This document shows positions 43-11,704 of a DNA stretch of 11,704 bases, one piece after another. Source of the DNA: Planctomycetota bacterium (GTDB taxonomy: Bacteria; Planctomycetota; Planctomycetia; Pirellulales; Pirellulaceae). The stretch covers positions 1-11,704 of the forward strand of contig JAHWKS010000073.1 in the NCBI GenBank assembly GCA_019347795.1. Direction: 5' to 3'. How positions within the stretch are numbered: the first letter of the stretch is position 1; every line of letters begins with the position of its first letter. The translations under genes were made by a program, and so were the position numbers. The notes under the pieces are model-generated. The model was not told the DNA's origin. It saw nothing but the letters and a program-made list of their open reading frames with translations, and did not search any database.

Positions 43-98
43 GTTGGAGTTCACGCTTTAGCGTGTCTACAGAAGCACGCTAAAGCGTGAACTCCAAC
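43..98. repeat. Perfect 23-base inverted repeat abutting the COX2 stop codon (copy 1)
   Basis: Arms at 43-65 and 76-98 are perfect reverse complements over 23 bases, separated by a 10-base loop (66-75). The inner 20 bases of the left arm read GGAGTTCACGCTTTAGCGTG. The right arm shares its last base with the TAG stop codon (98-100) of the COX2 gene. A related, decayed copy lies at 4233-4287, also at a stop codon. In RNA this would form a very stable hairpin. No run of U follows it, so it is not a textbook intrinsic terminator, but it could end or stabilise transcripts. Its recurrence suggests a dispersed REP- or MITE-like intergenic element. Confidence 0.9.
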
Positions 99-961
99 TA
101 GTCTTCTTGCGCCAGCGAGGGCGGAAGCTGTGTTCTTTGTTGCTGGTTGTACTGCTCGTTCAGCCAGCGGTCGAAGTCGGCCCGGGATTCGACCGTCAAT
201 CGGCCTTTCATCTTGTAATGGCCCCAGCCGCACAGCTCGGCGCAGACGATGTCGTACACGCCGGGGCGATTGGCGTGGAACCACACGAACTGCTTCATGC
301 CGGGCACCACGTCCTGCTTGACCCGCAGGTTGGGCAGGAAGAAGCTGTGCAGCACGTCGTGGCTTTCGATCTGCAAGACCACGTCTTCGTTGAGGGGAAC
401 GTGCAGGTCGTTGACGGTGAAGAAGTCGTCGTCCAGCGTCCCGCGAATCCCGTCGGCGCCGGGCATCAGGTAACGGATCCGCCACTCGAACTGATGGCCG
501 GTGACCAGCGCCAGCGGCTCACGGTAGACGTCGTCGGCGGTCCCTTCCTCCAGGTCCGGACCGGGACCGAACACCGGGCGCCGCATTTTGTGATCGGCCC
601 AAGCATTCATCTGGTAAATGGCGATGAACAGCAGCGTCGCCGCCGGAAGAATGGACCACACCACTTCCAGCGTGTGGCTGCCGTGCGTGAACTTTACGGG
701 GCCGGCGTTCTTGAAGCTGTCGTACTTCCACAGGAACCAGAATAGCGCCAGGCCCGTGCCGATGAAGATCACGCCGGTCAGGTACATGATGAAGTAGTAC
801 AGCTCATCGATCACGCCGCCGTACTCGTTGATGTTCTCCGGCAGCCAATGGCCGTAGAACGGGCCCACTCCCGCCATCGAGAGCGCGAACACCGCCACGC
901 CGAGCACCGGCACCAGCAGAAACAGGATGCTCCACACCCAATTCCAAGAACTTCGTCCCAC
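98..961 (-). CDS. coxB: Cytochrome c oxidase subunit II (CuA subunit)
   Basis: The 287-residue protein accepts electrons from a periplasmic carrier at a binuclear CuA centre and passes them to haem in subunit I. All CuA ligands are visible: H205 in HDVLHSFFLP, then C240, E242, C244, H248 and M251 in CAELCGWGHYKM. E99, in the family-typical TLEVVW sequence before the last membrane helix, corresponds to the glutamate at the K-channel entrance of A-type oxidases. Three hydrophobic segments (about 7-32, 51-80 and 98-121) give one more than the usual two helices. There is no cytochrome c fusion at the C-terminus. The start is GTG (959-961), with AAGGTGA four bases upstream. Two acidic GT-DD loops (about 135-144 and 168-179) interrupt the copper domain. 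The gene follows a dihaem cytochrome c by 29 bases, a likely electron donor. Confidence 0.95.
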   Translation of the reverse strand: MGRSSWNWVWSILFLLVPVLGVAVFALSMAGVGPFYGHWLPENINEYGGVIDELYYFIMYLTGVIFIGTGLALFWFLWKYDSFKNAGPVKFTHGSHTLEVVWSILPAATLLFIAIYQMNAWADHKMRRPVFGPGPDLEEGTADDVYREPLALVTGHQFEWRIRYLMPGADGIRGTLDDDFFTVNDLHVPLNEDVVLQIESHDVLHSFFLPNLRVKQDVVPGMKQFVWFHANRPGVYDIVCAELCGWGHYKMKGRLTVESRADFDRWLNEQYNQQQRTQLPPSLAQED

Positions 962-990: not shown

Positions 991-2226
991 TTACAGGCGC
1001 TCGCGGCCGTACTCGATTCCGTGTCCTTCGGGCTTGCTCATCGGCTCGTGCGGAAGCGAGCGGACGTAAGCGATGATGCTCCAGATGTCCTCCGACGTGA
1101 GGCCGGTGGCCGGCGCCGCCGGCATGGGCGTGCCTTCGATGCCGTTCTTCACACGCAGAAACAAATCCACCGGGCGACGCCCTCCGCGGTAGATCCCCGC
1201 CCGCAGGTTCCGCGGCTGAATGGGGCGGGGGTTCAGGATGCGCGGCTCCTGCACTCCCAGCGCCAGATATTCTTTGGCCTGGAGAGCGGGGTTCTTGTCG
1301 TCGATCTCCTTAGTCCAGTCATCGTAGTCTCCGGTCTCGCCGTCCCCCAGCGCGAGCTGTCCATGACACTTCACGCAGTTGGCCACCGTGCCGAAGAATA
1401 AGTCCCGGCCGTGACGGATCGATTCCTCCGACATCCAGTCTTCGGGCGGCGTGGGAACCTCGGTCACCTGCGCGGAGGCGTTTTCCCATTGACCGACGAC
1501 CATGCCGACCGTCTCCCGCACCATGCCGAGCTGCTCCTGAAACACGTCGGCGGCTTCGCGGCGCACCAGCGGATCGAGAACCGGCTCTCCTTCGTCCAAC
1601 TCGGTGAGGAGGTTCACCAACCGCCGCTCCACCTCGCCGCGAATGGCGAGATACTTGACGTAGTGCGCCAGGGCGTCGATCTCGTCATCGGCCAGGAGGC
1701 GGAACGACGGCATCGCGGTGCCGGGAATGCCGTCGATGAGGATCCGCCGCAGGTCGTCGTGCGTCGGCTTGACGCCCAGCGGCGTCGATTTGAACTTGAA
1801 CTTCGCCATCCGGTAGTCGCGCGGATAGGGGTTCAAGAACGCCGCCGTGGGGCCGGCGCCGTCGCCGCTGACGCCGTGGCAGTGAGCGCAGTGCTCGCGA
1901 TATAACCCGCGGGGCGTGCCGTCCTCGTGCCTGCCCACCGGTCCGGCCGCCATGCGGATGAGCTGCGGATCCAGGACCTCCCCCACCTCGACGTCGGCCA
2001 ATTGCGGGACGTGCGGGTCGTCGGGCGTGCCGAACAGGCCGACCATCACGTCCTTCAGATTCTGCAGTTGCGTCGTCAGCGCCTGCACTTCCTCGCCGTT
2101 TTCCGGCTCGCCCAGCGTCTTTTGGATGTAGACGCGATCGAGCCGGAAGTCCGCCTCAGGCGAATCGCACCCGGAGAGAAAAAAGCCCGTGGAAAGGAGC
2201 AGGAACAGAACGACCCGGGAATCCAT
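991..2226 (-). CDS. Dihaem cytochrome c lipoprotein
   Basis: This 411-residue protein begins with a hydrophobic signal ending in a lipobox (LSGC, cysteine at residue 20), so it is probably tethered to the membrane facing the periplasm. It has two class I-like cytochrome c domains. The first has CAHCH at 113-117 and probable axial methionine M172 in GTAMPSF. The second has CVKCH at 284-288 and probable axial methionine M368 in GTPMPA. A linker rich in charged residues (about 195-260) joins them. The gene stops 29 bases before COX2, so the protein is a good candidate for carrying electrons from the quinol-oxidising module to CuA; this role is inferred from position. The ATG at 2224-2226 places the signal peptide at the very N-terminus, although no clear Shine-Dalgarno sequence precedes it. 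The family resembles many unassigned dihaem cytochromes, so no gene name is given. Confidence 0.9.
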   Translation of the reverse strand: MDSRVVLFLLLSTGFFLSGCDSPEADFRLDRVYIQKTLGEPENGEEVQALTTQLQNLKDVMVGLFGTPDDPHVPQLADVEVGEVLDPQLIRMAAGPVGRHEDGTPRGLYREHCAHCHGVSGDGAGPTAAFLNPYPRDYRMAKFKFKSTPLGVKPTHDDLRRILIDGIPGTAMPSFRLLADDEIDALAHYVKYLAIRGEVERRLVNLLTELDEGEPVLDPLVRREAADVFQEQLGMVRETVGMVVGQWENASAQVTEVPTPPEDWMSEESIRHGRDLFFGTVANCVKCHGQLALGDGETGDYDDWTKEIDDKNPALQAKEYLALGVQEPRILNPRPIQPRNLRAGIYRGGRRPVDLFLRVKNGIEGTPMPAAPATGLTSEDIWSIIAYVRSLPHEPMSKPEGHGIEYGRERL

Positions 2227-2301: not shown

Positions 2302-3207
2302 TCAAAACATCGCCGCGTCCAACGTGACGTTGAAGTCGCGCGCCTCATCGGGATTGAGCGTCAACTTCACCCGGCCGCGGGAGATGGACTCGTCTGAACC
2401 TTCGGGCGTCACGCCGTCCACGTAGTCCAGGTGGGGCTGCCAGACGCGGAACTCCAACTCCACGCCGGCGGGCAGGTTGGGGATTTCGAACTCGCCGTTC
2501 TCATTCGTAACGGCAAAGTACGGATTGTCGCGCGGCAACAGCCAGGCCTTCATCCAGGGATGGATGCTGCACGAAACCGGCGCCGGCGAGCGCTCCTCGC
2601 CGCCCGGCTGATACGTGGTCGAGCCGTTGGCGCCGATCGTCTGGTTGAACGGCCGGGCGCCGCCTTTGGGATCGATCTTCGTGTTATGGCCGATCGGGTC
2701 GCTGTTGAGGATCTTCAGCGTCTGCGAGGTCCATATCGCGGCGACGTGCGTGGTGAAGATGCAGTTCTCCTGATCGAACATGACCTCCGCGTTCCGCTGC
2801 GCCTCGTAGCTTTCGTGAAGCCACTTGGGATCGTCGGTGGGAATGGGCGTCGAGAGATAGACGACCACGCCCGAAAGGCCGCCGTTGGGGCCGACGACGA
2901 TCTCTTCCGATCGCGGCGGCTGTCCGCCGGGAGCACAGATCCGCGCATCCTGGTGGGTGGCCGCGGCCGCGAGCGGATCCGGCGCCGGCGGTTGACCGCT
3001 GACTTTGAAGATCCCCTTGAGCGTCCCCCACCCCATCGGGTCGGGAAGCGCCGCCGCGACGGCCTGCGCCCCGCCGGCCCCTTCTTCGACGGCGTCGCGA
3101 ATCGTCAGAGCCGACTCCATATCGGCCGGCGGCTCATCGGGGAACCGCGCCTCGCAGCCAACAAGGAGCAACAACGCGGCCGCAATTGCAAATCTACGAG
3201 CGTTCAC
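2302..3207 (-). CDS. Putative cupredoxin-type lipoprotein (second of a tandem pair)
   Basis: The protein (301 residues from the chosen GTG at 3205-3207) starts with a signal peptide ending in the lipobox LVGC, cysteine at residue 18. Its middle resembles a plastocyanin/amicyanin fold. H174 in NSDPIGHNTK, then C213, H216 and M219 in CSIHPWM, match the His-Cys-His-Met set of type 1 copper sites. The 39-residue H174-C213 spacing and the CxxHxxM loop are those of amicyanin. A segment after it (about 229-250, FAVTNENGEFEIPNLPAG) resembles carboxypeptidase regulatory-like (Greek-key) domains, the likely database annotation. It is a paralogue of the gene 38 bases upstream. It probably carries electrons in the periplasm, but copper binding is inferred. 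The frame stays open further upstream into the neighbouring gene; the GTG start is preferred because it puts the signal peptide first. Confidence 0.8.
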   Translation of the reverse strand: MNARRFAIAAALLLLVGCEARFPDEPPADMESALTIRDAVEEGAGGAQAVAAALPDPMGWGTLKGIFKVSGQPPAPDPLAAAATHQDARICAPGGQPPRSEEIVVGPNGGLSGVVVYLSTPIPTDDPKWLHESYEAQRNAEVMFDQENCIFTTHVAAIWTSQTLKILNSDPIGHNTKIDPKGGARPFNQTIGANGSTTYQPGGEERSPAPVSCSIHPWMKAWLLPRDNPYFAVTNENGEFEIPNLPAGVELEFRVWQPHLDYVDGVTPEGSDESISRGRVKLTLNPDEARDFNVTLDAAMF

Positions 3208-3245
3208 AATCGTTACTCGTCTTCCTTTTTCTAACGCGGTTACCC

Positions 3246-4019
3246 CTAGAACGCTGCGGCGGGGACCTTCACCTCGCCCAGGTTCAAGGCGGCCTTGTCC
3301 TTGATGTTCAACTCCACCCGGCCGCGCTTCCACTCGACCGACTTGCCGTTCATCGAGACCGTGTCCAGGTAGCCGGCCTTCTCGTGCCAGAACTGGAACG
3401 TCCAATTCCCCTCGGGGATGTTCTTGATCTCGAACTCGCCGTTCTCATCGGTGACCGCCATGTAGGGATGCTCCTTCACCACGATCCAGCCGGTCATCCA
3501 CGGATGGATGCTGCAGCTTGCGCGGGCGGGGAGCCGCTCGGGGGCGGTGAACTTCTGCGGCAGCTTGGCGCCGGGCGGGAGCAGCGGGTTGATCGGCTGG
3601 TTGAAGGCGTCCACCTTCGTGTTGTGTGCGATCGGATCGCTGTTGCTCAGGATCAGCGTCTGGCCGGTCTGCACTGTCGCCACCCGCGGATCGAAGCGGC
3701 AGTTTTTGTTGTCGAACGTGACCGGCGCCTGCTTGGCCAGGTCCGGATGAACCTGGGGAGCGGTATCGCCGGGACCGACGTAGATGTAAACGATCACGTT
3801 CTTCAGCCCCCCCTTGGCGTCGACCACCAGCGATTCATCCACCAGCTTTTTGTCTCCGCAGAACTGCTGGTCTTTGGTGACGGCGATCGGCTGCGGCGCC
3901 GGCGGCTTACCGTCGTAGATGAAGCGGCCCTTGATGCTGCCCCAGCCTTGAGCGTCGGCGACGCCGGACATCAACACGGTAAGAGCAAGGGAAGCGAATA
4001 GTAGATGAATTCGTCGCAT
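3246..4019 (-). CDS. Putative exported cupredoxin-like protein (first of a tandem pair)
   Basis: The 257-residue protein has a classical signal peptide (1-23, likely cleaved after VADA), so a soluble periplasmic location is expected. A plastocyanin-like region contains H132 in NSDPIAHNTK and C169, H172 and M175 in CSIHPWMTG. This is the ligand order and loop length of amicyanin, suggesting a type 1 copper electron carrier. C54 and C107 are additional cysteines that might form a disulfide. A carboxypeptidase regulatory-like strand pattern follows (about 187-210). The next gene is a paralogue with the same ligand set but a lipoprotein signal. The start at 4017-4019 has an excellent ribosome binding site (AAAGGAG, 7 bases away); an in-frame extension to about 4244 would put 75 residues before the signal peptide and is unlikely. 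This gene probably opens the second transcription unit of the window. Function is inferred from ligands and context. Confidence 0.85.
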   Translation of the reverse strand: MRRIHLLFASLALTVLMSGVADAQGWGSIKGRFIYDGKPPAPQPIAVTKDQQFCGDKKLVDESLVVDAKGGLKNVIVYIYVGPGDTAPQVHPDLAKQAPVTFDNKNCRFDPRVATVQTGQTLILSNSDPIAHNTKVDAFNQPINPLLPPGAKLPQKFTAPERLPARASCSIHPWMTGWIVVKEHPYMAVTDENGEFEIKNIPEGNWTFQFWHEKAGYLDTVSMNGKSVEWKRGRVELNIKDKAALNLGEVKVPAAAF

Positions 4020-4287: not shown

Positions 4288-7200
4288 TCATTCTGGACTG
4301 TTTGTGCTGTTCGCTTCTCCTGAACCGCCGCCCGACGCGGCTGCCGCGCCGGTGGCCGGCTCGGCAGCTTCTCCCGTGGCCGGCTCGGCGCCTTCCTCGC
4401 CGGTCATGGGCGGATTCGCCGCCTGCACCAACTCGGCGATCGACGTCTTCTGTTGCGCGAAGTGGTCGTAGTTCATCAGCAGGTCCACCAGCGCATCAAG
4501 CTGCTCCTCCGGCGTGCCGTGATAGAGACCTTGCGTGGCGAACCCGGTGTTCGGATTGATGTTCATCGGCATCCCCGTGTATGGCAGGATGCTGTCGGGC
4601 TTGGCGATCCACGGGCGGACGAAGCCGGCCCGCAGGCGGCGGTATGCATCCGCGAGATCGGGCGCCAGGGCCCGGGGGCTACCCTGCGGGGCGAAGTCGC
4701 CCACGAGGTGGCACTTTACGCAGCCGGCGTTGTTGGTGACGATTCTCATCGCGTCGTCGAAGCGGCCGGCGCCGGAAGTCTGCTCGCCGTACTGCTGGGC
4801 CTTCGTTTCCAGCACGTCGCGGCGGCGATGGGCCAGCCGATCGTACGGATAGGCGGCGTTGTCCTTCGCGGCGAAGTAATCCACCAGCGCCTGCGCCTCG
4901 GCGCCCGACATGTTGAACTTCGGCATCCGCAGGAACACCGCCGGGCGGATCGGATACGGATCGAGCAGGAAGTTATACAGCCACTCAGGCTGCACCTTCC
5001 GTCCTTCGCCGACCAGCGGCGGCGGGACCCAGCCCCACGCCTCGGACGCCTTCGCCTGCGGATTCGCCTGCCGCTCCAGGTCGACCACCCGCGGCACAAG
5101 ATAGCGGGCGAGGTAGCCGCCGTGGGCGGGATAGGACTTCTCGATGCGGGCCGCCTTCACGATCATCGGCGCCGGGCCGACCATGTAGCTGTTGCCGTCG
5201 ATGGCGGCCGGCTCAAAAATCTGGATGAGGTGCTCGAGCTGGGCCGGATCGTACTCGTCGCCTGGTTGGACCGGATCGCCGAACTCGTCATAGGCGGTGG
5301 GCATTCCGTCGTTGTCCAAAAACGGCTGCCCGGTGATGGTGGCGTGCAACATCCCGCGGCGGTCCGTTCGCTGCGACTCCGCCAACTGCTCGGGCGTGAA
5401 GTCGGGACGCACGAAGTCGAAGGCCTCCATCGTGGGCGGCTCCCGGAATTCGCCCGGCGGGAACGAGAGGTCCCACTTCTCCATCTCCAGCGTATGGCAG
5501 CCCCCGCAGTTGTACTTGGCCAGCACGCGGCGGCCTTCATGAATCGCCCGGCTTCGCTCATCCGGCTGATAAATGAACTGCGGCGCCGGGGGCTCGGCCA
5601 CCAGCCCCAGAACAAACGTGATGACCTGCTCCCGCTCGTCGTTGTTGAAGGGGAACTGCGGCATACGCAGCCACTCGTTGTAGCCCTTGTTCTCGGCCTT
5701 CTCGAAGTCGTAGCTGCGCGGTTCGCGAAGCTTCTGGAAGATGAAGCCTTCTCGATGGTTCGCCGTCAGCGCTTCCTCATAGTAGGGCGGTAGCGGCTGC
5801 TCGTCGGCCTCGCCCGGCGGCGCCTCGCCGTGTCCGGCGTGTCCGTGCTGGTGCTGATGATGCAGGTAGTGCGTGATGTGCTCGAACGCCAGCCGCGAAG
5901 TATCTTTGCGTCCCCAGTCGGCCAGTCCCGTGCCGATCGGCTTGGCGTCCTCGAAGCCGGGGATGTCGTGACAGCCGTAGCAGCCGTACTTGCTGAGCGC
6001 CTTGGCGCCGACGTAGATCAGCCGCTGCCGGTCGTTCAGGCTCTCGGAAATCAGCTCGACTTCGGCGCCCTTCAGCTCGTCGCGCAGCTCCTCGGGGACG
6101 CCGGTTTCGTAGTAATCCTCGGCGGCCCGCTCATAGAACTGCGTCGTCAGATATTGCAGGCTCAAGTCGCGAAGCGCTGTCTCGGCGAGAGAGTCCGCCG
6201 GCAGGTTCCCCTCGGAATTCAGGACGTAGCTCTCGGGGAAAGCAGGCTGCCAGTCTTCGCGCTGATGACTGAGCAGAAATCTGGCGATGTCCAGCGCGGG
6301 GTCGATCAGCCGTCCTTCCTCGTCTTCATAAGGATCAAGGAACAGGTCCGGCATTTTCGTGCGAGCGTGGTACCGCGTCGGCTCTTTGATCCAGCTATAG
6401 AGCCACTGCGGCCCGACCGGATTCCGCTGCGAGTCGAACTTGGAGCCGATCCCCGAGAGGTTCGGACCCTGCACGATCTCGCCGTCGTAGCGGTAGTCGG
6501 CGGCTTCGGGAAACTCCTCGTGATTGTGGCACGCCAGGCAGCCGCGGGTCTCAAAGAGGATTTTGCCGCGGGTGATCTGCTCCTCCTCGGTCCAGTCGTG
6601 AAGGTTCTCGGGCGGCTCGAGGAACTCGAAGTTCTGGCTGCGGTCGAGCAGGTAGAGCGTCATGCCGAGGATCTCGACCGGCTCGAACGCCTCCGCAACC
6701 TTGATGGCCGATGCCCCGGCGTCGGCGGGCTCGCGGCTTTCCGCGGCGGTGTCGGTGTCGGGGAGCTCCGTCGCCACTTCGGCGTGGGCCATCGCCTTCA
6801 AGTGCTCGTGCAGGCCAAAGAACTGCGGCATCCGCGTATCGGGACGGAAGTGCGACGGCTTGCGGATCCAGTCCAATAGGAACGCCTCATCATCTTTGCT
6901 GGCGACGTAGCGCAGCGCCGGCCCGGCCTTTCGCAGCGTGCCGGGAACTTCGACGTCCCTCAACAACGGCTCCAGTTCATGCGACTCGGGCGGAAGGACG
7001 GCCGCCGCCTCGGCCTGCTCGGAGACATCGCCCGCAACCGATTCCGGCCGTTCCCCTTGGGCAAGGTCGATGTCTTGCAGGATCAAGCGGTGCAGTTCCC
7101 GCCGCGGCGCGTCCAGTTCGGGATTGACGGCTAACCGCCCGGCAAGCTCCGTCACCTGGTTGAGCGTCTGCAGCCGGTTGCCGCTCTCGGCCACCGCCGC

Positions 7201-9798
7201 CAGTTGCGGCAGCACCTCGCGAATGGCGGCCAATCGCTGCTGCGTGGCCTCGTCCAAGTCGCCGCCGATATCCTCCCACGCCTTCAGCTCCTGCTGGAGC
7301 GCGTCGCTGCGCTGTTGGAGATCGGCGACATTGCTCAAATCGGCGCCTTGGAGCACGCCCCCTTCGCCGGCCGCGGCTTCCAGTTTCTGGGCGATCTCCC
7401 CCACCTGCTCCCCGAAGCGTTGCCGCCGCTCGTCCACTTGCGAGAGCAACTGCTGCGCGGCGGCGTAGTAGTTCGGCTCCAACCGCAGGTCGGGACCGAT
7501 ACGGCGGTTCGGACCGTCGAAGCCATTGATCTCGTGACAGCCGAAGCAGCCGTAGGCGGCGATCAGGTCGTGTCCTTGCACCACCTTCGGCGCCGGCGGC
7601 TCGGGAAATTTTTCGCTCGGCTCCAGCTCGGTCACGTCGTGATGGCACTTCAAACAAGTGCTCTCGGCGAACCGCTCCGGCTGCATCGGGAAGATCCAGT
7701 GGTGGTTGTAGAACCAGCCATGCTCCTCCCGCCATTCCTCGGCCTCGCGCGGCGTGTTGGGCGTATGCGAGGCCCACTTGAACGCGGTGGCGCTCCCTTG
7801 CCCCTCGTGGCAAACGGTGCAGCCGAAGACGGTCATCGGGTGCGGGCTGAGCGAGCCGAGGAACAGGTCCAGCCGCGGGTGCGAAGCGTACGGATGCGGC
7901 AGACCGCGGCGGACGGTGAGCGTCAGCGGCTCGCCCCACTTCACCGTGTGCAGCAAAAGCCGCACGGCTTCGGTTCGGTCGCGGACGTAGGTGTCGTTGA
8001 TTCGCACGATCACGTCGCCGAGCATCAGGCCCGGCTGCGGCCTCTCCAATTCCTCCTGGTCGTATCCCTCCGTGTGGAGCAGGCTTTCCATCAGTTCGGC
8101 GCCGGGGCGGCTTTGGCTTTCGACGTCGGAAACAAGCGTCGCCCGGGCCGCCCGGGACTCGTTGCGGACGTACGACACCGCCACCTCATCGCGGCTGATC
8201 AGACCCCGGTCGGCAAGCTGCAGCCCGTAAACCTCGTCCAGGGTTAGCTCCTCCCCCTCGGCCGTCTCCGGGAGCTGTGTCCGATCGGGCGTGGCCAGGA
8301 CCAACTGAAACTCCTCGCCGTGCGGGTATGCCCCATCTACGGCCGAGCCCGGCATCGTTTTGACGATCGCCTGATGGCAGGTGGTGCAGCGGTCGAAGCG
8401 GCGCACTTTGCTGAAGCTGCCGTACTGGATGGTCAGCCCTTCCGTCCAGAGGTTGTCGATCTTGCGCGGCGAGTTGAAGGCGTCGAGAATCGGCATCTCC
8501 AACCAGCGTTTGCCCAGCCACGGGAACGTGCTGGCGAAGAACGTCGAGCGCTGCTGCTCGATCGTTTCCCGCAGCCGCTCGAGGTCATTGCGGTTCTCGG
8601 CGATCTCTTTCTCGACCGCATCCGCTTCGGCGGTGATCTCGCCGATCGTCTCCTGCAGGTCGCGGCGATGTTGCGAGGCGTCTTGATACGCGATGTTCAA
8701 CGCGTCCAACTGCTTCTTGAGGCGGTCGATCTCCGCCTGAGCTGGGGGAATCTGCTCGGCAAGATTGTCACGGACGTACAGGTCGCGGACGGCGCGGGCT
8801 TCGTCATATTGGGCGGCCTTGAACTTCCGATCGCGGAGCAGGCTGTCTTCGCGAAAGCGGGCTCGACGGAGGATGTCTCGCATCTGGCTAAGCAAGTTGT
8901 CGCGCACTTCGGCGGCGCCGGCTTCCGCCTCGACGGCCGCTTCACTGCACCTTTGATAGGCCTCTGCGAATCTCTGGCCTGCCAGAAGTCGAGCCTGGCG
9001 GGCCTCTTCGGGATTCGCCGCCTCGTCGGCGCCTTGTTTCTCTTCGCCGGTTTCGGCGGGAACGGCCAGCTTGTCCGCCTTCGCGGCCGCCTCGCCAGCT
9101 TCCCGGAGCGAGGTGGCAATGGCGGCGAACAGCTCGGCGTCTCCGGACTCAAAAACGCCTTCCTCCGTGTTCTGCGCCTGCTGCTGAAGCTCGCTCGCCT
9201 GCTGCGCCCCCTGGAACGCCTGGTCTGCCAGGTCCGATTGCTCGCGTCCGGAAACCGCCGGAGCGCCTTCGCCGGCCGCTTGTTGGGCTTGTTGCGTTTG
9301 CTCGGTTCGCTCCTGCTCGCTGACCAACTCATCGATCAGCTCGGCCAGGCCGCGCAGGGCGACGGCCCGGGCGCCGCGCCGGGTGGAGGTTTGGCTTAGA
9401 TCTTCGATATTTGCCAAGTCCTGCGCTTCATCGAATACTGGAATCCCTTGCTCCTCTGCGACCTCTGGATCGAGCGCATAACCCCGCTGAACAGCGTCCT
9501 GCTTAACTTCCTCGGTGAACTCCGCCACCAGGTTGTCGGCCACGGGCTGTCCGCGGACCGAGAGCAGCCGCGACTGGAGCCGCTCGTGGGTCTTTTCGAT
9601 GTCGGCCGCCATCGCTTCATCTCGCCACGCGGCTTGGCGGGTTTCGATGTCAATGAAGGTCCGCTGCGTGTCCTTCCACTCCCGGGTGTGGTCGGCGTAG
9701 AACATCCAGACGGTGGACAACAGCATCAGGACGCCGGTCACCGCGAACACGGCGTGCAGCCAATGCTGGTTGCGCCAGGTTTGCTCCGTTGCAGGCAT
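4288..9798 (-). CDS. Giant membrane-anchored octahaem cytochrome c with PDZ-like domain
   Basis: This 1836-residue protein has one N-terminal membrane helix (about 14-34) and a large, presumably periplasmic body. Eight CXXCH haem sites start at residues 471, 660, 715, 751, 1087, 1273, 1431 and 1693. The last five each have a downstream methionine in an MP context (M990, M1149, M1379, M1625, M1743) typical of class I cytochromes; the first three lack one and may be bis-histidine. Residues about 521-632 resemble a PDZ domain (GDVIVRIN and LTLTVRRG). Charged, Gln- and Ala-rich coiled coil is likely at about 150-420, and again at 775-905, where it splits the fourth haem module. A cluster of eight histidines spans 1307-1323, and the tail is Ala/Gly/Glu-rich. 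The start is 2 bases after the cytochrome b stop, so translation is probably coupled. It may replace cytochrome c1/f in the bc-type complex; that role is inferred. Confidence 0.9.
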   Translation of the reverse strand: MPATEQTWRNQHWLHAVFAVTGVLMLLSTVWMFYADHTREWKDTQRTFIDIETRQAAWRDEAMAADIEKTHERLQSRLLSVRGQPVADNLVAEFTEEVKQDAVQRGYALDPEVAEEQGIPVFDEAQDLANIEDLSQTSTRRGARAVALRGLAELIDELVSEQERTEQTQQAQQAAGEGAPAVSGREQSDLADQAFQGAQQASELQQQAQNTEEGVFESGDAELFAAIATSLREAGEAAAKADKLAVPAETGEEKQGADEAANPEEARQARLLAGQRFAEAYQRCSEAAVEAEAGAAEVRDNLLSQMRDILRRARFREDSLLRDRKFKAAQYDEARAVRDLYVRDNLAEQIPPAQAEIDRLKKQLDALNIAYQDASQHRRDLQETIGEITAEADAVEKEIAENRNDLERLRETIEQQRSTFFASTFPWLGKRWLEMPILDAFNSPRKIDNLWTEGLTIQYGSFSKVRRFDRCTTCHQAIVKTMPGSAVDGAYPHGEEFQLVLATPDRTQLPETAEGEELTLDEVYGLQLADRGLISRDEVAVSYVRNESRAARATLVSDVESQSRPGAELMESLLHTEGYDQEELERPQPGLMLGDVIVRINDTYVRDRTEAVRLLLHTVKWGEPLTLTVRRGLPHPYASHPRLDLFLGSLSPHPMTVFGCTVCHEGQGSATAFKWASHTPNTPREAEEWREEHGWFYNHHWIFPMQPERFAESTCLKCHHDVTELEPSEKFPEPPAPKVVQGHDLIAAYGCFGCHEINGFDGPNRRIGPDLRLEPNYYAAAQQLLSQVDERRQRFGEQVGEIAQKLEAAAGEGGVLQGADLSNVADLQQRSDALQQELKAWEDIGGDLDEATQQRLAAIREVLPQLAAVAESGNRLQTLNQVTELAGRLAVNPELDAPRRELHRLILQDIDLAQGERPESVAGDVSEQAEAAAVLPPESHELEPLLRDVEVPGTLRKAGPALRYVASKDDEAFLLDWIRKPSHFRPDTRMPQFFGLHEHLKAMAHAEVATELPDTDTAAESREPADAGASAIKVAEAFEPVEILGMTLYLLDRSQNFEFLEPPENLHDWTEEEQITRGKILFETRGCLACHNHEEFPEAADYRYDGEIVQGPNLSGIGSKFDSQRNPVGPQWLYSWIKEPTRYHARTKMPDLFLDPYEDEEGRLIDPALDIARFLLSHQREDWQPAFPESYVLNSEGNLPADSLAETALRDLSLQYLTTQFYERAAEDYYETGVPEELRDELKGAEVELISESLNDRQRLIYVGAKALSKYGCYGCHDIPGFEDAKPIGTGLADWGRKDTSRLAFEHITHYLHHQHQHGHAGHGEAPPGEADEQPLPPYYEEALTANHREGFIFQKLREPRSYDFEKAENKGYNEWLRMPQFPFNNDEREQVITFVLGLVAEPPAPQFIYQPDERSRAIHEGRRVLAKYNCGGCHTLEMEKWDLSFPPGEFREPPTMEAFDFVRPDFTPEQLAESQRTDRRGMLHATITGQPFLDNDGMPTAYDEFGDPVQPGDEYDPAQLEHLIQIFEPAAIDGNSYMVGPAPMIVKAARIEKSYPAHGGYLARYLVPRVVDLERQANPQAKASEAWGWVPPPLVGEGRKVQPEWLYNFLLDPYPIRPAVFLRMPKFNMSGAEAQALVDYFAAKDNAAYPYDRLAHRRRDVLETKAQQYGEQTSGAGRFDDAMRIVTNNAGCVKCHLVGDFAPQGSPRALAPDLADAYRRLRAGFVRPWIAKPDSILPYTGMPMNINPNTGFATQGLYHGTPEEQLDALVDLLMNYDHFAQQKTSIAELVQAANPPMTGEEGAEPATGEAAEPATGAAAASGGGSGEANSTNSPE
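7903..8238 (-). other. PDZ-like domain inside the giant cytochrome
   Basis: Residues about 521-632 show the PDZ pattern: an opening strand with YGLQL, a VSYVRNESRAARA segment, then GLMLGDVIVRIND, a helix (EAVRLLLHTV) and a closing strand PLTLTVRRG. About 30 extra residues appear between the two halves. The domain sits between the first and second haem sites, where it could bind a partner's C-terminus. The assignment is by eye from the motif pattern. Confidence 0.65.
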
Positions 9799-9800
9799 AT

Positions 9801-11156
9801 CTAAAAGTTCAAAAAGTATTCAGGAATCGCGACGAAGTACTTCAAGTTCAACGTCCAGCGAAAGAGCATCTTGATGGGCAACAGCGCCATGAACAGCAGC
9901 AGGTTGGCCAACACCATAAAGCGAATGAAGCCCATCCGCAGGAAGAACTTTCGCATAACGGTGACCGCCAGCATCGGCGGCACGGCGATGAAGTAGAACA
10001 GCACCAGGAGAATGCCTGGCCCCTCGCGGAGCAGGATATATCCCACCTTGGTCGCCTCCCCCGCCCCTTCCGGCGCCTGAGGCCGGCCCATCTCCAGCGC
10101 GGAAATCCAGAAGTATTCGGAGAGGTCCACGTTGCTGAGCGCTTCCACTTTGTGCGCGTCCCACACCTCGTACGGCCCGAAGAAATTCCAGTTGGGGCCG
10201 CGGAGGAAGGTGCCCATCACGATCAGCGTGACCCATAGCACGAGGAACCCGAACTGGAACGTGATGTACGCGAACTTTCGCTGATCGATGGTGTAGTAGC
10301 CGCTTCCCTGCTTGTTGAAGTCCAGGTACGGAATGGCCATCAGTCCGAAGACGACCAGGCTCGGCAGCACGACGCCCGCCATCCAGGGGTCGTAGTAGAC
10401 CAGCATCTCCTGCAGGCCGAGGAAGTACCACGGAGCCTTCGAGGGGTTGGGCGTCTTGACGCTGCTGGCCGGCTCCTCCAGCGGCGCCTGCAGCGCCACC
10501 GCCCACACGATCATCAGCGCCGTCAGGGCCACCATGCAGATCAGCTCGGTGTAGACCAGGTCGGGCCAGACGAGCACTTTCTCGTTCTCAAGCGACTCCA
10601 GCGGGGGCTCGTTGCGGCGCGCGCGGTCGTCGTTCTGCACCGCCCGATACGCGCCCAGCCAGGTGAAGAAGCCCAGTAGAAAGACCATCCCCACAATAGG
10701 GACGTTGTCGGGCTTGGTCACGATGGCGGCGAAGCTGGGGTTGGTCATCGACAGCCCCATCAACAAGAGCGACAGATTCAAGAGCGACCACGCCACCCAG
10801 GGCTGGACGAAGAACCGCCGCAGCACGAACAGCACGCCCAGAATCACCAGCGACCCCAGCGTGTAGACCGTGGGGTCCATAAAGCGGTTGACCGCTTCTT
10901 CCACCGCCAGGGGAAGCCGCAGAAGTCCGGCCCCGCCGCCCAAGGCGATGGGCGCGATGATCGTAAACACCCCGGCCACCGCCAGCCACGCCAGCGCCGT
11001 CGTGACGGGAAACCGGCCGATGCGAAACAGCGTTCTCGCCTTGCCCGTCTCCCACAGGTAGAACGCGGCGACGGCGTTCACCACGGCGAGAAAAAGGTAA
11101 TACCCGCCGAGAAACCCCGACATGCTCTTGAGAAAAACGTCGTAATCGCCGTGCAT
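9801..11156 (-). CDS. Cytochrome b C-terminal subunit (subunit IV-like, enlarged)
   Basis: The 451-residue protein is the second half of a split cytochrome b, forming part of the quinol-oxidising (Qo) site with the b6-like subunit. The core (about 180-330) has WPDLVYTEL, the Qo-loop counterpart APWYFLGLQE (241-250), YDPWMAGVVLP and GTFLRGPNWNFFGPYE. Canonical subunit IV is about 160 residues with three helices. Here about ten hydrophobic segments are visible (roughly 17-35, 51-71, 94-114, 120-137, 152-172, 201-222, 257-275, 299-317, 379-400 and 410-430), so both ends are extended. The PEWY glutamate is replaced: the sequence is APWY, with a glutamate at 250. The ATG at 11154-11156 lies 12 bases after the cytochrome b6 stop, with no clear Shine-Dalgarno sequence. 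The family is secure; the quinone used (probably menaquinone in this kind of bacterium) is inferred. Confidence 0.9.
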   Translation of the reverse strand: MHGDYDVFLKSMSGFLGGYYLFLAVVNAVAAFYLWETGKARTLFRIGRFPVTTALAWLAVAGVFTIIAPIALGGGAGLLRLPLAVEEAVNRFMDPTVYTLGSLVILGVLFVLRRFFVQPWVAWSLLNLSLLLMGLSMTNPSFAAIVTKPDNVPIVGMVFLLGFFTWLGAYRAVQNDDRARRNEPPLESLENEKVLVWPDLVYTELICMVALTALMIVWAVALQAPLEEPASSVKTPNPSKAPWYFLGLQEMLVYYDPWMAGVVLPSLVVFGLMAIPYLDFNKQGSGYYTIDQRKFAYITFQFGFLVLWVTLIVMGTFLRGPNWNFFGPYEVWDAHKVEALSNVDLSEYFWISALEMGRPQAPEGAGEATKVGYILLREGPGILLVLFYFIAVPPMLAVTVMRKFFLRMGFIRFMVLANLLLFMALLPIKMLFRWTLNLKYFVAIPEYFLNF

Positions 11157-11168
11157 GAAAGTTAAACC

Positions 11169-11704
11169 CTACAGCGGGCCGCTGATGCCGCCGTCCTTGC
11201 GGACGCGCCAGAAGTGGATCGCCATCAAGAGCGCCGCCCCCAGCGGGATCGCGATGCAGTGCAGCACGTAAAACCGGTTGAGCGTCTCTTCGCCCACGAA
11301 CCGCGCCCCCAAGAGGCCAAACCGGGCGTCCGAGGCGTTGGTGATCATGTCGATGCCCCCCACCGTGAGCAACTGGGCGCCGGGGCCTTCATGCCCGAGA
11401 AACGGCGTGGCGCGGGCCATGTTGGAGCCGACCGTGATCGCCCAGATCGCCAGTTGGTCCCACGGCAGCAGATAGCCCGTGAAGGAGAGCAAGAGCGTGA
11501 GTAGCAAGAGAATCACCCCCACCACCCAATTAAACTCCCGCGGCGGCTTATAACTGCCCGTGAGAAACACACGGTACATGTGCAGCCAAACGGTGATCAC
11601 CATCGCGTGGGCGCCCCAGCGGTGCAGTTCGCGCAAGACGCCCATCGAAGTCACATCACGGAGGGCGAGAATATCGTTGTAAGCCCACTCCAACGTGGGA
11701 CGAT
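11169..11704 (-). CDS. Cytochrome b6-type subunit of a quinol-cytochrome c reductase (5' end missing)
   Basis: The last 177 residues of a cytochrome b N-terminal subunit are visible; the gene enters from the right edge. It binds the two b haems of a bc/b6f-type complex. Helix B carries the ligand pair in HRWGAH and WLHMYR (codons at 11622-11624 and 11580-11582, 14 residues apart). Helix D carries FYVLHC and MAIHFW (11259-11261 and 11214-11216). The helix D pair is 15 residues apart, as in cytochrome b6 rather than mitochondrial cytochrome b. The Qo helix motif TGYLLPWDQ and the terminal GGISGPL, typical of the b6 branch, are present. The stretch between TVGS and NRFYVLH is longer than in plant b6. 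The N-terminal region that would show a cysteine for an extra c-type haem lies outside the window. A Rieske gene is expected upstream but cannot be seen. Confidence 0.93.

Follow-up and report, generated by a model that had tools for sequence, protein, structure and literature searches.

An octahaem cytochrome c as the probable replacement of cytochromes c1 and f in a Rieske/split cytochrome b operon of Pirellulales

Results

The window, that is, the whole stretch of DNA analysed, is a complete contig (G000:C387, 11,704 bases) of a draft genome estimated to be 72% complete. All genes of the locus, from cytochrome b6 through cytochrome c oxidase subunit II (CoxII), lie on the minus strand. The N-terminal cytochrome b6 gene (11169..11702; PF13631/PF00033) is cut by the contig end, so that the upstream end of the operon, Rieske gene included, falls outside the window. 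It is followed by a gene for a cytochrome b C-terminal, subunit IV-like protein of 451 aa (9801..11156; PF00032) with SKAPWYF in the Qo motif region, and then by an ORF with an ATG start encoding an octahaem cytochrome c (4288..9798), identified from the ORF call, the CXXCH count and homologues. Farther downstream are genes that did not figure in the original prediction. They encode a blue-copper-like protein with the motif HN...CSIHPWM (3246..4019, 4019 being the probable start; PF13715 below cut-off), a second blue-copper-like protein recognised by its motif, with a lipobox-like VGC, an uncertain start and no Pfam match (2302..3405), a dihaem cytochrome c with a lipobox-like SGC and two CXXCH (991..2226; PF00034), and CoxII with the CuA motif CAELCGWGHYKM (98..961; PF00116). 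As originally stated, no cytochrome c1 or f gene is in view within the window, which stops inside cytochrome b6.

The original description of the octahaem was confirmed in its particulars: one protein of 1836 residues with eight CXXCH and a single membrane helix, whose start codon lies 2 bases past the end of the cytochrome b C-terminal gene. Hydropathy places the helix at the N-terminus (residues 12–34; 9697..9765, minus strand, as are all features below). Next comes a long coiled-coil-like stretch (residues 38–430; 8509..9687), delimited by alignment and site positions, its coiled-coil character being judged by eye. Exactly eight haem sites follow: CTTCH at residue 471 (8374..8388), CTVCH at 660 (7807..7821), CLKCH at 715 (7642..7656), CFGCH at 751 (7534..7548), CLACH at 1087 (6526..6540), CYGCH at 1273 (5968..5982), CGGCH at 1431 (5494..5508) and CVKCH at 1693 (4708..4722). 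Their spacing is wide, from 36 to 336 residues. Chance origin of the eight motifs was ruled out by 5000 shuffles of the protein, which gave on average 0.0028 CXXCH and never more than 1.

The only His and Met residues conserved in at least 17 of 19 diverse homologues were the eight CXXCH histidines, three further His, five Met and the start Met. The three extra His (H640, H653 and H678; 7765..7881) and the five Met (M990, M1149, M1379, M1625 and M1743; 4570..6831) were each invariant (19/19), as were Lys residues K1298 and K1356; Lys can ligate haem, albeit rarely. This provides one candidate distal ligand per haem and predicts three bis-His and five His/Met haems. The first three haems would form a bis-His cluster, and the five C-terminal ones, each with His/Met ligands, would occupy mono-haem domains resembling class I.

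A PDZ domain lies between haem sites 1 and 2 (residues 526–634; 7897..8223). The Pfam PDZ_2 match stays below cut-off (21.2 bits versus 27); the segment is confidently predicted by AlphaFold, finds PDZ folds (best E 0.008) and appears in the alignment, where it belongs to the consensus of 21 Pirellulales-side proteins and is missing in most of the wider set. Homologues of about 940 residues have haem site 1 at residue 222–234, versus 471 in the window protein, whose coiled-coil-like stretch is about twice as long as theirs. The size of the window octahaem can thus be traced to inserts (coiled coil, PDZ and helical) around a core of about 940 residues.

Predicted folds of the two octahaem halves were compared with known structures by Foldseek, with no match at E ≤ 0.001 for either. 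The half carrying haems 5–8 (mean pLDDT 82) retrieved SoxX mono-haem cytochromes first, weakly (E 0.12). Next came complex III, cbb3 oxidase, c551 and NorC chains, and unrelated proteins ranked among the lower matches. The half carrying haems 1–4 folded poorly (mean pLDDT 65) except for the PDZ domain and helices, and its first matches were PDZ domains. Sequence searches of the PDB gave only weak SoxX-like and unrelated matches (best E 0.093).

Strong octahaem matches were present in 30 of the 40 nearest genomes, the source genome included; the other 10 had none or weak ones, and the weak matches listed among them fell mostly in the last ~200 residues. More widely, query residues of about 1585–1790 weakly match other planctomycete ORFs of about 490–1580 aa in many near genomes, so a different family of cytochromes may also possess this last haem domain.

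Twenty near loci were read. All encode an octahaem with eight CXXCH, and in all of them the cytochrome gene directly preceding it is the cytochrome b C-terminal gene (at L033 an unassigned 95-aa ORF is listed between the two), with SKAPWYF kept in all 20 relatives. Cytochrome b6 is present in 19, the twentieth (L027) being cut by the contig, and the octahaem-linked b6 copies of relatives are 80–98% identical to that of the window. The protein preceding b6, available at 17 near loci, was a Rieske protein by Pfam or motif in every case (Pfam in all six scanned; the motif in 16 of 17, the seventeenth, L026, being among the Pfam matches). The gene order in relatives reads Rieske, b6, IV, octahaem, blue-copper-like 1 and 2, dihaem cytochrome c, CoxII and CoxI; downstream, the dihaem cytochrome was found at 17 and CoxII at 15 of the 20 near loci, some of which end before these genes.

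A further 20 loci come from other families and classes in which matches were obtained. Their octahaems, of 937–1865 residues, all have eight CXXCH and one hydropathy helix. Rieske, b6 and IV genes precede the octahaem at 15, b6 and IV without a recognised Rieske at L168, and a Rieske gene only at L167; at L160, L162 and L164 the octahaem has no adjacent Rieske or b genes. The genomes of these three and of L167 carry b6 elsewhere. Over 80 named loci an ORF was obtained in 79, with eight sites in 73, seven in five and six in one; the six ORFs with fewer than eight measure only 990–1394 aa, and five of these lie where a contig ends; L092 was left unresolved.

Homologues are spread over much of the phylum: among 292 of its genomes that were sampled, the octahaem model (1e-20) matched 113 and the b6 model (1e-60) 135, so that b6 also occurs without a recognised octahaem. 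For 100 tabulated octahaem genomes, b6 lay within 15 kb in 79, at 20 kb in one and on another contig in 17; of the remaining three, two had a b6 match at 1e-60 and G144 had none. Among the near genomes, a close b6 was found in 29 of the 30 that bear the octahaem, source genome included (G006 shows only 55 residues of it, where a contig ends); in the thirtieth, G035, the octahaem sits on a 5.1-kb contig. The 10 near genomes without octahaem had no close b6, three showing weak matches of 33–45% identity. Linkage to a split cytochrome b, which was to be checked for constancy, thus proved near-constant: the near loci uphold it, whereas L160, L162, L164 and L167 have no b gene beside the octahaem and G144 lacks a b6 match. 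Separately, G010:C527 and G015:C4 each carry a second b6 (50–52% identical) in the vicinity of a shorter ORF (560 and 791 aa) that matches the octahaem weakly; this may be a sister complex.

A cytochrome c1 or f gene immediately upstream in the operon had been named as a finding that would speak against the proposed role. No c1/f-like gene stood upstream of the octahaem at any of the loci read, where the only upstream CXXCH was one inside the anammox reductase (L163/L169). Cytochrome f (PF16639) was absent from all 40 genomes, the control matching in Synechococcus. The c1 model (PF02167) matched in 12 of the 40 (10 of them above cut-off), but each match spans just 20–44 of the model's 219 positions and lies inside an ORF of 491–1369 aa; there was no full-length cytochrome c1 among the 40 genomes, and the Pfam scan gave no PF02167 match in the window octahaem. 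The idea that a c1 or f lies at some other site was set aside on these searches.

Alternative complex III (ActA–F) is a multihaem, quinol-oxidising complex that lies beside oxidase genes in some bacteria and whose membrane subunits differ from those of a Rieske/cytochrome b complex. ActD, the single marker used for it, was found in all 10 near genomes without octahaem versus 12 of the 30 with it, the source genome being one of these 12 (Fisher p 0.0008, kinship ignored). By these gene counts, octahaem and alternative complex III marker show a complementary pattern, and an octahaem complex III would be present in relatives where the marker was not found.

Genes downstream of the octahaem were compared as well. 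At the near loci, HN or HT ... C..H..M is conserved in 38 of 38 blue-copper-like proteins, and from this motif alone a type-1 copper site would be expected. In two distant lineages a blue-copper-like domain is fused to the C-terminus of the octahaem (L026, residues 1557–1800; L160, residues 1652–1862). The CuA motif is found in CoxII of 15/15 relatives, as in the window. The blue-copper-like proteins, the dihaem cytochrome c and the CuA oxidase are likely partners of the octahaem.

Among known systems, cytochrome b6f and bc1 share with the octahaem type the b6/IV split, the Rieske protein, the four b-haem His and the haem cN Cys, the last as seen in relatives; the four His and the Cys were present in 14/14 aligned b6 relatives, the Cys position being outside the b6 part in the window. 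The octahaem type differs in lacking cytochrome f or c1 and in having SKAPWYF rather than PEWY, the Qo motif of cytochrome b6f/bc1. ExtP/ExtQ, from selenite/tellurite reduction operons of Geobacter, were the best NCBIfam matches of both cytochrome b proteins, below curated cut-offs, and ExtS, the cytochrome of that operon, matched the window octahaem weakly (20.7 bits versus a cut-off of 100).

The closest likeness is with anammox bacteria. In the Kuenenia Rieske/cytochrome b complexes, a cytochrome c with six or eight haems takes the place of cytochrome f, and the octahaem Kustd1485 has long helices that wrap halfway round its complex (PMC12954380). The operon at L169 comprises Rieske, b6, an FAD/Fe-S NAD(P) oxidoreductase, IV and a 948-aa protein with eight CXXCH. 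Over 117 residues its Rieske protein shows 100% identity to PDB 9rk3, which Table 1 of PMC12954380 gives as Kustd1480, and its b6 has the His62 that in Kustd1481 ligates an unexpected haem b (PMC12954380); on these grounds L169 was equated with Kustd1480–1485. BLASTP aligned the window octahaem with that of L169 in separate stretches (4e-35 and 2e-29), and by this comparison the window octahaem is homologous to Kustd1485 over the haem domains. The hexahaem Kuste4573 (363 aa) and HAO-like Kuste4574 (584 aa) at L170 gave no match to it at E 1e-4.

Both octahaems have eight CXXCH; that of the window is encoded with b6 and IV there and with a Rieske protein in its relatives only. The two systems are alike in an octahaem replacing cytochrome f, a b6-like protein, a Rieske protein and a IV-like protein with extra helices (PMC12954380). 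They differ in that Kustd1485 has 948 aa, versus 1836 aa for the window protein with its PDZ domain, longer coiled coil and inserts, and in that the Kustd1480–1485 operon has the NAD(P) oxidoreductase and no recognised oxidase gene beside it, whereas the window has copper-protein and oxidase genes. The Kuste4569–4574 complex likewise combines b6, IV and Rieske with a multihaem cytochrome c instead of cytochrome f (PMC12954380). The His equivalent to Kustd1481 His62 was invariant in 14/14 aligned b6 (L021:12676-13452 included), among them relatives whose loci show no relative of the NAD(P) oxidoreductase.

Discussion

The octahaem is probably a Kustd1485-homologous cytochrome c subunit of a Pirellulales Rieske/b6-IV complex III, in which it would stand in for c1 or f. 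Its proposed role as electron-exit subunit in their place is supported by operons without c1/f, genomes without cytochrome f and near-constant linkage to cytochrome b. From the parts, their order, their homology and their conserved ligands, all read from sequence, we infer an electron route, together with its potentials and an assembly with the oxidase. Quinol, probably menaquinol, would be oxidised at the Qo site, one electron passing through the b haems while the mobile Rieske head delivers the other to one of the octahaem's haems; moving along these haems, it would then reach the blue-copper proteins, the dihaem protein or both, and finally the CuA site of the oxidase. The coiled coil and PDZ domain would act as a scaffold that perhaps keeps complex III and the oxidase in one assembly. 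Some observations sit less easily with this reading. With three haems predicted to be bis-His, a type normally of low potential, it is not evident that electrons could run downhill through the full set of eight; two Lys are invariant as well, b genes are not adjacent to the octahaem at some of the wider loci, and 12 of the 30 octahaem genomes also have ActD.

The original prediction also suggested that the octahaem is perhaps a wire to partners at some distance from the membrane; in its broadest version this would be a long-range wire that links cytochrome b with remote or even extracellular acceptors. Great length, eight haems and a long coiled-coil-like stretch fit such a wire, but the same eight haems are kept in homologues of about 940 residues, the size is accounted for by inserts, and sites 36 to 336 residues apart make no tight bis-His stack; five haems have a conserved Met as in class-I mono-haem domains, to which fold matches are weak. 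Candidate acceptors are moreover encoded next door in the same operon, and in two lineages the octahaem itself bears a fused copper domain. An easy linear wire is further disfavoured by the usually low potential of bis-His haems, set against values of +303 and +335 mV measured for the two Rieske proteins of Kuenenia (PMC12954380). We regard the distant wire as unlikely.

Less likely still is a bifurcating complex that yields NAD(P)H, the role proposed for the complexes of Kuenenia. The homologous octahaem would suit it, as would the same extra His and haem cN Cys in all 14 aligned b6. However, the anammox FAD/Fe-S NAD(P) oxidoreductase had no BLASTP relative (1e-5) among ORFs of the 20 near loci, for which this version was dismissed, and in the 20 wider loci a relative appeared only at the anammox locus L163. 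Its gene stands between b6 and IV in anammox bacteria, whereas b6 and IV are adjacent in the window, with oxidase genes downstream instead. Comparably improbable is an enzyme docked on cytochrome b, for instance an octahaem protein converting nitrite or hydroxylamine. The HAO-like octahaem Kuste4574 does adjoin another Kuenenia complex (PMC12954380), but the Pfam and NCBIfam matches of the window octahaem at E ≤ 0.001 included no HAO-type family, and eight invariant extra His/Met for eight haems would leave no open site; an HAO-like enzyme was rejected on both counts. The Onr/HAO-like octahaems of Phycisphaerae (PMC11266412) are a different protein.

An octahaem in place of c1 or f is already known for anammox bacteria, and the statement that known complexes use small c1/f subunits or mono- to few-haem replacements overlooked Kustd1485 and Kuste4573 (PMC12954380). 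Rieske paralogues of a b6f complex are mentioned for Planctomycetes in PMC4013037. No description of the octahaem outside anammox bacteria was found in the literature covered, which takes in few subscription journals. Apparently new, though it may be in print elsewhere, is the aerobic form, with its ~940-residue core swollen by coiled coil, PDZ domain and helical inserts and its copper, dihaem and CuA genes. A survey of multiple Rieske/cytochrome b complexes reportedly exists.

More tentatively, and with the balance of our judgement somewhat against it, aerobic Planctomycetota may possess a hard-wired, one-piece complex III–IV in which the octahaem, with blue-copper domains either built in or docked and with a PDZ/coiled-coil scaffold, replaces c1/f and mobile cytochrome c, the same module having been recombined with an NAD(P) oxidoreductase by anammox bacteria. 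On the main reading, the odd octahaem of the anammox complex would be more than a quirk of those bacteria: it would belong to a complex III that is widespread among planctomycetes and has an electron exit of its own. The ligand set (three bis-His, five His/Met) and the copper-protein link are directly testable, and the extra His of cytochrome b in the absence of a neighbouring NAD(P) oxidoreductase bears on the published proposal that links this His to NAD(P)H production.

Two further observations concern anammox bacteria. Five MAGs labelled Candidatus Kuenenia stuttgartiensis (L107, L113, L123, L126 and L129) encode a long octahaem of 1520–1660 aa, unlike the 948-aa one of L169; these labels look wrong. 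In G183, from the same order as the window, five ORFs of 705–1398 aa match the hydrazine synthase alpha Pfam domain, which indicates that this domain alone need not mark anammox.
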